Assembly: GCF_003148465.1 (NCBI RefSeq)
Contig: NZ_QGGI01000004.1
Span: forward strand, 91,930-155,929
Reading direction: 5' to 3'
DNA from: Oceanotoga teriensis
Lineage (GTDB): Bacteria; Thermotogota; Thermotogae; Petrotogales; Petrotogaceae
DNA length: 64,000 nt
Part shown: positions 30,047 to 38,151 of the stretch, one piece after another
Position numbering within the stretch: the first letter of the stretch is position 1
Layout of the letters: every line of letters starts with the position of its first letter
Notes under the pieces: model-generated
Seen by the model: only the letters and a program-made list of their open reading frames with translations
The model's database searches: none
What the model was told of the DNA's origin: nothing
Translations under genes and position numbers: made by a program

Positions 30047-30122
30047 GACCCGCTAGCTCAGATGGTAGAGCATTTGACTTTTAATCAAAGGGCCCTGGGT
30101 TCGAGTCCCAGGCGGGTCACCA
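30047..30122 (+). tRNA. tRNA-Lys (anticodon TTT)
   Basis: The cloverleaf is complete: acceptor GACCCGC/GCGGGTC, anticodon stem TTTGA/TCAAA around loop CTTTTAA, T arm CTGGG-TTCGAGT-CCCAG, discriminator A and encoded CCA. It is the first gene of a three-tRNA operon. Confidence 0.97.
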
Positions 30123-30140
30123 TTTTTTTATATCTAAAGG

Positions 30141-30225
<85 letters not shown>

Positions 30226-30231
30226 AAGCAT

Positions 30232-30306
30232 GCGGAAATAGCTCAGCGGTAGAGCACTTGCTTGCCAAGCAAGGGGTCGCGGGTTCAAATCCCGTTTTCC
30301 GCTCCA
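30232..30306 (+). tRNA. tRNA-Gly (anticodon GCC)
   Basis: Acceptor GCGGAAA/TTTCCGC, anticodon stem CTTGC/GCAAG around loop TTGCCAA, T arm CGGG-TTCAAAT-CCCG, discriminator T and encoded CCA. It is the last gene of the tRNA operon, six bases after tRNA-Leu. Confidence 0.97.
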
Positions 30307-30310
30307 AAAT

Positions 30311-30340
30311 AAACGAAAGCATAATTGCTTTCGTTTTTTT
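30311..30340 (+). terminator. Terminator of the tRNA operon
   Basis: Stem aaacgaaagc/gctttcgttt (30311-30320 with 30327-30336), six-base loop, then T's. Confidence 0.92.
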
Positions 30341-30438
30341 ATTTTATTTTTTATTTCACATAATTTCACATAATTAGAACATTTTTCTGCCAATCTTTTT
30401 TTTTATAATATAAATGAAAATAAAAGGAGGCGGATTTT

Positions 30439-37707: not shown

Positions 37708-37716
37708 TGGTATAAT
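37708..37716 (+). promoter_or_regulatory. Extended -10 promoter of the stefin-like gene
   Basis: TGGTATAAT matches an extended -10 (TGnTATAAT). A weak TTGTAA lies 19 bp before the -10. The ~70-base leader contains a short hairpin gctcttt/aaagagc (37759-37772) just before the AGGAGGG ribosome site. Confidence 0.6.
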
Positions 37717-37793
37717 TTTGTTGAATTAATTTTTATTTATAAAAACCTTTGTATAAAAGCTCTTTAAAGAGCATAATATAAGGAGGGTTTTAT

Positions 37794-38072
37794 ATGGAAG
37801 ACAAGATGATAGTTGGAGGTTGGAGTGAGTTTAAAACTGATATTTCTGATGAAGAAATGAGTGTTTTCAGTCAATCTATGGAACATTTTGTTGGAGTTAA
37901 ATATACACCAATAGCAGTTGCAACTCAAGTCGTAAGTGGTATGAACTATTGTTATTTTTGTAATGCAAAGGCTGCATATCCAAATTCTCCTAATGAAGCA
38001 GCTATGGTCGAAATATATAAACCTATTAAAGGAGATGCACATATAACTCAAATTAGAAAGTACATATTGTAG
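37794..38072 (+). CDS. Stefin/cystatin-like small protein, putative cysteine protease inhibitor
   Basis: A 92-residue protein without a signal peptide. It shows the three stefin hallmarks in order: a near-N-terminal Gly-Gly ('MIVGGWSE', G8-G9), a QxVxG loop (Q45-V-V-S-G49 within 'TQVVSGMNY') and a C-terminal strand 'MVEIYKPIKGDAHITQI'. In stefins these parts form the wedge that blocks papain-like proteases. Length matches stefins (~98). Two Cys (C53, C56) form a CxxC. It has its own promoter and terminator. Small proteins of this kind are known in some bacteria but have no settled role. The fold is inferred from motif order; activity is not shown. AGGAGGG lies before the ATG. Confidence 0.7.
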   Translation: MEDKMIVGGWSEFKTDISDEEMSVFSQSMEHFVGVKYTPIAVATQVVSGMNYCYFCNAKAAYPNSPNEAAMVEIYKPIKGDAHITQIRKYIL

Positions 38073-38104
38073 ATAATAATTTAATTACATAATAATTTTT
38101 TAAG

Positions 38105-38151
38105 ATCCAAGACTATACTCGATTATATTGAAGTATGGTCTTGGATTTTTA
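38105..38151 (+). terminator. Terminator after the stefin-like gene
   Basis: Arms atccaagactatact (38105-38119) and agtatggtcttggat (38132-38146) pair with one wobble, then TTTTT. Confidence 0.88.

Follow-up and report, generated by a model that had tools for sequence, protein, structure and literature searches.

A stefin-like gene of Oceanotoga teriensis, probably acquired by horizontal transfer and apparently the first stefin in the phylum Thermotogota

Stefins of animals and protists block papain-like peptidases, and they are usually regarded as a eukaryotic means of control over eukaryotic cathepsins. Bacterial stefins were first described in 2009 by Kordis and Turk, who reported them from eight phyla, none of them in Thermotogae, and proposed host cathepsins as their targets (PMC2784779). 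Oceanotoga, which is placed in the family Petrotogaceae (PMC11326445), is an anaerobe from oil wells and a sinkhole with a genome of 2.84 Mb and 26.2% G+C (PMC10112263). The window analyzed here, that is, the whole stretch of 64,000 nucleotides of O. teriensis DNA, has a G+C content of 26.1% and belongs to a genome of 2.79 Mb. It carries a small gene which an earlier note, made from the DNA alone, had taken for a bacterial stefin or cystatin, describing such inhibitors as rarely studied. That description is right, although the kind is not new, as the 2009 survey (PMC2784779) demonstrates. Judged from its sequence, the product is apparently the first stefin in the phylum Thermotogota, of a kind already known.

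Table 1. Coordinates of the stefin-like gene and of the signals around it
Feature	Position in window	Strand	Basis
Stefin-like gene, 92 aa	37794..38072	+	Open reading frame and translation; profile and fold matches
Ribosome binding site AAGGAGGG, 6 nt ahead of ATG	37780..37787	+	Sequence
Candidate extended -10 TGGTATAAT (TGnTATAAT)	37708..37716	+	Sequence; weak
Perfect 14-base palindrome GCTCTTTAAAGAGC in leader	37759..37772		Sequence scan
Probable intrinsic terminator of stefin-like gene	38102..38149	+	Predicted fold, -27.3 kcal/mol, z -6.5

The open reading frame (Table 1) is intact, with an ATG start, 92 codons and a TAG stop, and its translation contains the motifs named in the earlier note: a Gly pair (residues 8-9), QVVSG (45-49), MNY (50-52) and the segment VEIYKPIKGDAHITQI (72-87). 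The segment MIVGGWSE, which had been given as the N-terminus, is also present, but at residues 5-12 behind MEDK. The order of these elements is that of stefins, as had been stated, while the match in spacing is only rough: 36 residues lie between the second Gly and the Gln, compared with 41 in human stefin A, and in the alignment the loop between strands 3 and 4 is longer. Global alignment to human stefin A gave a score of 47, the shuffled sequences having a mean of 10.8 and a standard deviation of 5.4 (z 6.7; none of 1000 shuffles scored as high). A degenerate DNA pattern for QVVxGxNY had a single occurrence in the whole 64 kb, whereas 100 shuffled windows contained none; together with the alignment score this rules out a chance motif. 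The cytosolic location given in the earlier note is in keeping with the N-terminus MEDKMIVGGWSEFK, which has no hydrophobic leader. The protein has only two Cys residues (53 and 56), and a disulfide bond between them is unlikely because both sit in the same strand. A spurious frame was ruled out by the ribosome binding site, the terminator, the relatives with conserved residues and the low dN/dS ratios described below. The overlapping reverse frame at 37764-38051 (95 aa) was rejected as a frame shadow, with a third-position G+C of 0.45 compared with a mean of 0.15.

The gene had been credited with its own promoter and terminator. A promoter of its own is plausible but weak: the extended -10 TGGTATAAT is in place, and it is rated weak because it has no good -35 and because the consensus scan listed no promoter on the + strand upstream of the gene. 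The terminator fared better, since the hairpin, whose folding energy includes flanking pairs, is followed by U residues, despite its absence from the strict consensus terminator scan. The leader (37722-37800) is predicted to fold around GCTCTTTAAAGAGC and to pair the ribosome binding site (z -3.0), and on this model translational or temperature control is possible. No Rfam family matched the leader.

With the single sequence, homology was not evident. The Pfam scan gave no match to Cystatin (PF00031) up to E 1, the NCBIfam and PHROGs scans returned nothing useful, and the best phmmer match reached only E 0.56. A search of the organism's own genome with PF00031 was likewise negative, but the control genomes were equally without a match. 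The relationship became clear only with a profile. Based on six bacterial relatives, a profile searched against all PDB chains found the type 1 cystatin of Fasciola hepatica (6i1m) as its best match at E 2.9e-7, and a second profile search of solved chains returned the same protein at E 5.7e-6. Weaker matches were to cystatins and stefins of ticks, plants, Dictyostelium and mammals.

An AlphaFold model built on an alignment of 13 sequences had a mean pLDDT of 89.8 and a pTM of 0.80, with the order strand, helix and four strands. The helix spans residues 19-29 (11 residues) and the strands following it residues 35-46, 49-60, 67-77 and 83-90. In this model the helix is wrapped by an antiparallel sheet, which is the cystatin fold that the earlier note had expected from structure prediction. 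QVVSG is placed where strand 35-46 turns into strand 49-60, and a second hairpin loop, around P77-G80, is present at residues 78-82. The first 35 Foldseek matches were all stefins, cystatins or fetuins, with no E-value reaching 0.001. VIA-align placed Dictyostelium cystatin A2 at Z 10.4, ahead of stefin B as solved with papain (Z 9.5) and of stefin A (Z 8.2). Since profile and predicted fold agree, the protein is filed here as a stefin-type (I25A) member of the cystatin superfamily, an assignment based on sequence and model. It has the features of that type, namely a QxVxG motif in the first hairpin loop, a Gly near the N-terminus, a length near 100 residues, and neither a signal peptide nor, in all likelihood, disulfide bonds. 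The signal peptide and two conserved disulfides of type 2 cystatins were not found, as the protein is leaderless and has two Cys only.

Relatives were identified by translated searches. The homolog of Puteibacter caeruleilacunae (Bacteroidota; L002) is 58% identical, and others were found on a Persicobacter megaplasmid, a Bradyrhizobium conjugative plasmid and, as a protein of two domains, an Aureibacter plasmid. Three more stefin-bearing genomes were present among 198 relatives of Puteibacter, and two genomes, G114 and G145, have two stefin genes each. Relatives also occur on contigs classed as viral in IMG/VR, although this DNA may belong to a host or to the border of a prophage. Among phage records there was no relative. 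A tree of 21 bacterial rows left most forks open and no sister group is therefore claimed.

In genome G114 the two genes stand in tandem (L011 and L015), one with an intact QVVAG and the other with REKGF instead, which suggests that the motif-less copy is decayed or diverged. This copy was excluded from the alignments, in which the first Gly, Q45, V46, V47, G49 and N51 were invariant and P77 nearly so. Values of dN/dS among close relatives were mostly low (0.02-0.28 where a pair differed by more than a few changes), one close pair having 36 synonymous and 5 replacement changes. As far as codon changes can tell, this shows selection acting on the protein, and since the conserved residues are those of the putative inhibitory wedge, it is these that selection appears to keep.

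Two further observations concern the relatives. In one IMG/VR contig (IMGVR_UViG_3300002462_000006) the stefin domain forms the C-terminal end of an open frame of 1,750 aa (L008:3-5255), which also holds GLUG, Ig-like, cadherin-like and Cu_amine_oxidN1 domains. A series FCWGMC...HHSILAL...YDVNHP in this frame resembles the Cys-His-Asp triad of papain-like enzymes; if true, enzyme and inhibitor would be united in a single protein. A sequence search with that part of the frame found no solved relative. At four other loci (L007, L022, L018 and L004) MVSGIH stands near the start of reverse-strand frames shortly upstream of the stefin gene, as if the gene travelled with a fixed upstream segment on otherwise different contigs.

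Within Thermotogota no stefin relative was found in any of 102 other genomes. The gene of O. teriensis is solitary between unrelated genes. In a relative genome (G004) the ferritin-like/VIT1-type gene and the chemoreceptor gene are still adjacent, and a DNA-glycosylase-like gene occupies the place of the stefin. With a scatter of relatives in Bacteroidota, on a plasmid of Bradyrhizobium and on contigs classed as viral, and with none in those 102 genomes, the gene was probably gained by horizontal transfer from another bacterium, which is the simplest reading of its origin. Base composition is uninformative on this point, since the gene (33% G+C; third-position 0.20) is only about one standard deviation above the open reading frames of the window. 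A separate frame of 45% G+C at 30085-30393 on the - strand was rejected as spurious, being antisense to a tRNA cluster (Lys, Leu, Gly; 30047-30306).

The earlier note had seen no papain-like target in the window and had proposed a search for co-occurring C1 peptidases. The observation extends to the whole genome: Peptidase_C1, Peptidase_C1_2 and Peptidase_C39_2, the clan CA families covered, had no match, while control genomes were matched in each search. An endogenous papain-like target is thus unlikely, and the target is most likely foreign. In four stefin-bearing Bacteroidota genomes Peptidase_C1 did match, in long frames of 364-422 aa, which were taken for C1B-type enzymes. Inhibition of such enzymes by cystatins is not known.

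The reading considered probable here is that of a horizontally acquired cytosolic stefin which would plug a papain-like, and most likely foreign, cysteine peptidase. A wedge would be built from three elements, the Gly segment at the N-terminus and the two hairpin loops, the first of them with QVVSG, and would enter the active-site cleft as in eukaryotic stefins. Compared with stefin A, the protein has a shorter helix, a shorter segment from Gly to Gln and a longer loop between strands 3 and 4, which makes its fit to papain uncertain. The likeliest targets would be foreign papain-like enzymes, either enzymes of the cathepsin type from a host or predator, or papain-like protease toxins that a rival bacterium delivers into the cytosol.

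The first of these targets corresponds to the proposal of Kordis and Turk for bacterial stefins (PMC2784779), protection against the cathepsins of eukaryotic hosts or grazing protists. For the present protein this narrower reading is a real but lesser possibility. QVVxGxNY and the Gly pair match those of eukaryotic stefins, and the nearest fold matches inhibit C1A enzymes. The protein has no export signal, however, and would meet predator or host enzymes only after lysis or engulfment; its bearer, moreover, is an anaerobe of oil wells and a sinkhole (PMC10112263) and is not known to live in association with animals.

The second target would make the protein an orphan immunity protein, shielding the cytosol specifically from the papain-like protease toxins of competitors, and for a cytosolic protein such a toxin is as reasonable a target as host cathepsins. 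Interbacterial papain-like toxins active in the cytosol exist; Cpe1, which is delivered by a rival, cleaves GyrB and ParE (PMC12136450). The cytosolic and solitary nature of the protein, the patchy distribution of its family across phyla and the presence of relatives on plasmids and near phage genes agree with this reading. So do the double or tandem copies (the two Aureibacter domains; G114 and G145), one of which has lost QVVxG, as is seen in fast-evolving conflict genes. The reading is nevertheless unlikely, as no toxin gene adjoins the stefin in the window or at the loci of relatives inspected, and the cognate immunity protein of Cpe1 is described as a competitive blocker of substrate binding and not as an active-site plug (PMC12136450). 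Somewhat more doubtful is its general form, in which bacterial stefins would be a mobile cytosolic defence against rivals' papain-like toxins and the present one an orphan immunity protein in a cell without a papain-family enzyme. Tandem copies, the lost QVVxG and phage-gene neighborhoods fit a conflict role without proving one.

It is improbable that the protein regulates a cysteine peptidase, or some other enzyme outside the searched families, of its own cell. Control of the cell's own enzymes is the classical role of stefins (PMC2784779) and the three clan CA families searched are not exhaustive; these families are nevertheless unmatched in the genome. Absence from the 102 other genomes of the phylum is unlike a core regulator, and the position of the gene between unrelated genes also speaks against this role.

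The cystatin fold is reused elsewhere, in monellin, latexin, the fetuins and the aspartic protease inhibitor SQAPI, and non-inhibitory cystatin relatives usually lose the residues inserted into papain. A binding or packaging domain without protease inhibition is the least probable reading, as the papain-inserting residues are the most conserved of the family. In its favor are such reuse, a cystatin-like domain for which a packaging role in polymorphic toxins is proposed (PMC12419801), and the relative that closes the multidomain frame of 1,750 aa.

A single stefin with its inhibitory residues kept, in an anaerobe without a detected papain-family enzyme, would be an inhibitor parted from its usual endogenous target, and the purpose of bacterial stefins thereby becomes testable using one small protein.

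Among known systems, eukaryotic stefins A and B (MEROPS I25A; 1dvc, 1stf) resemble the protein in length, N-terminal Gly, QVVxG-xNY and fold. They differ in that the helix and the segment next to it are about 5 residues shorter here and the loop before the fourth strand is longer, and identity in the structural alignments is 14-22%. The Fasciola hepatica cystatin shares GG...QVVAGTNY but comes from a eukaryote, is secreted and has a longer helix region. Chagasins have an immunoglobulin-like fold, in contrast to the cystatin-like model obtained here. They too are protein inhibitors of papain-like peptidases in bacteria (PMC2784779). The Puteibacter homolog has the same motifs and is also a stand-alone gene, although its neighboring genes are unrelated. 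Bacterial stefins, compared by description, are alike in being leaderless and single-domain, with QxVxG, a patchy distribution and signs of horizontal transfer (PMC2784779). Thermotogae lies outside the eight phyla of that survey, and with the gene of O. teriensis the range of bacterial stefins is probably extended to Thermotogota.
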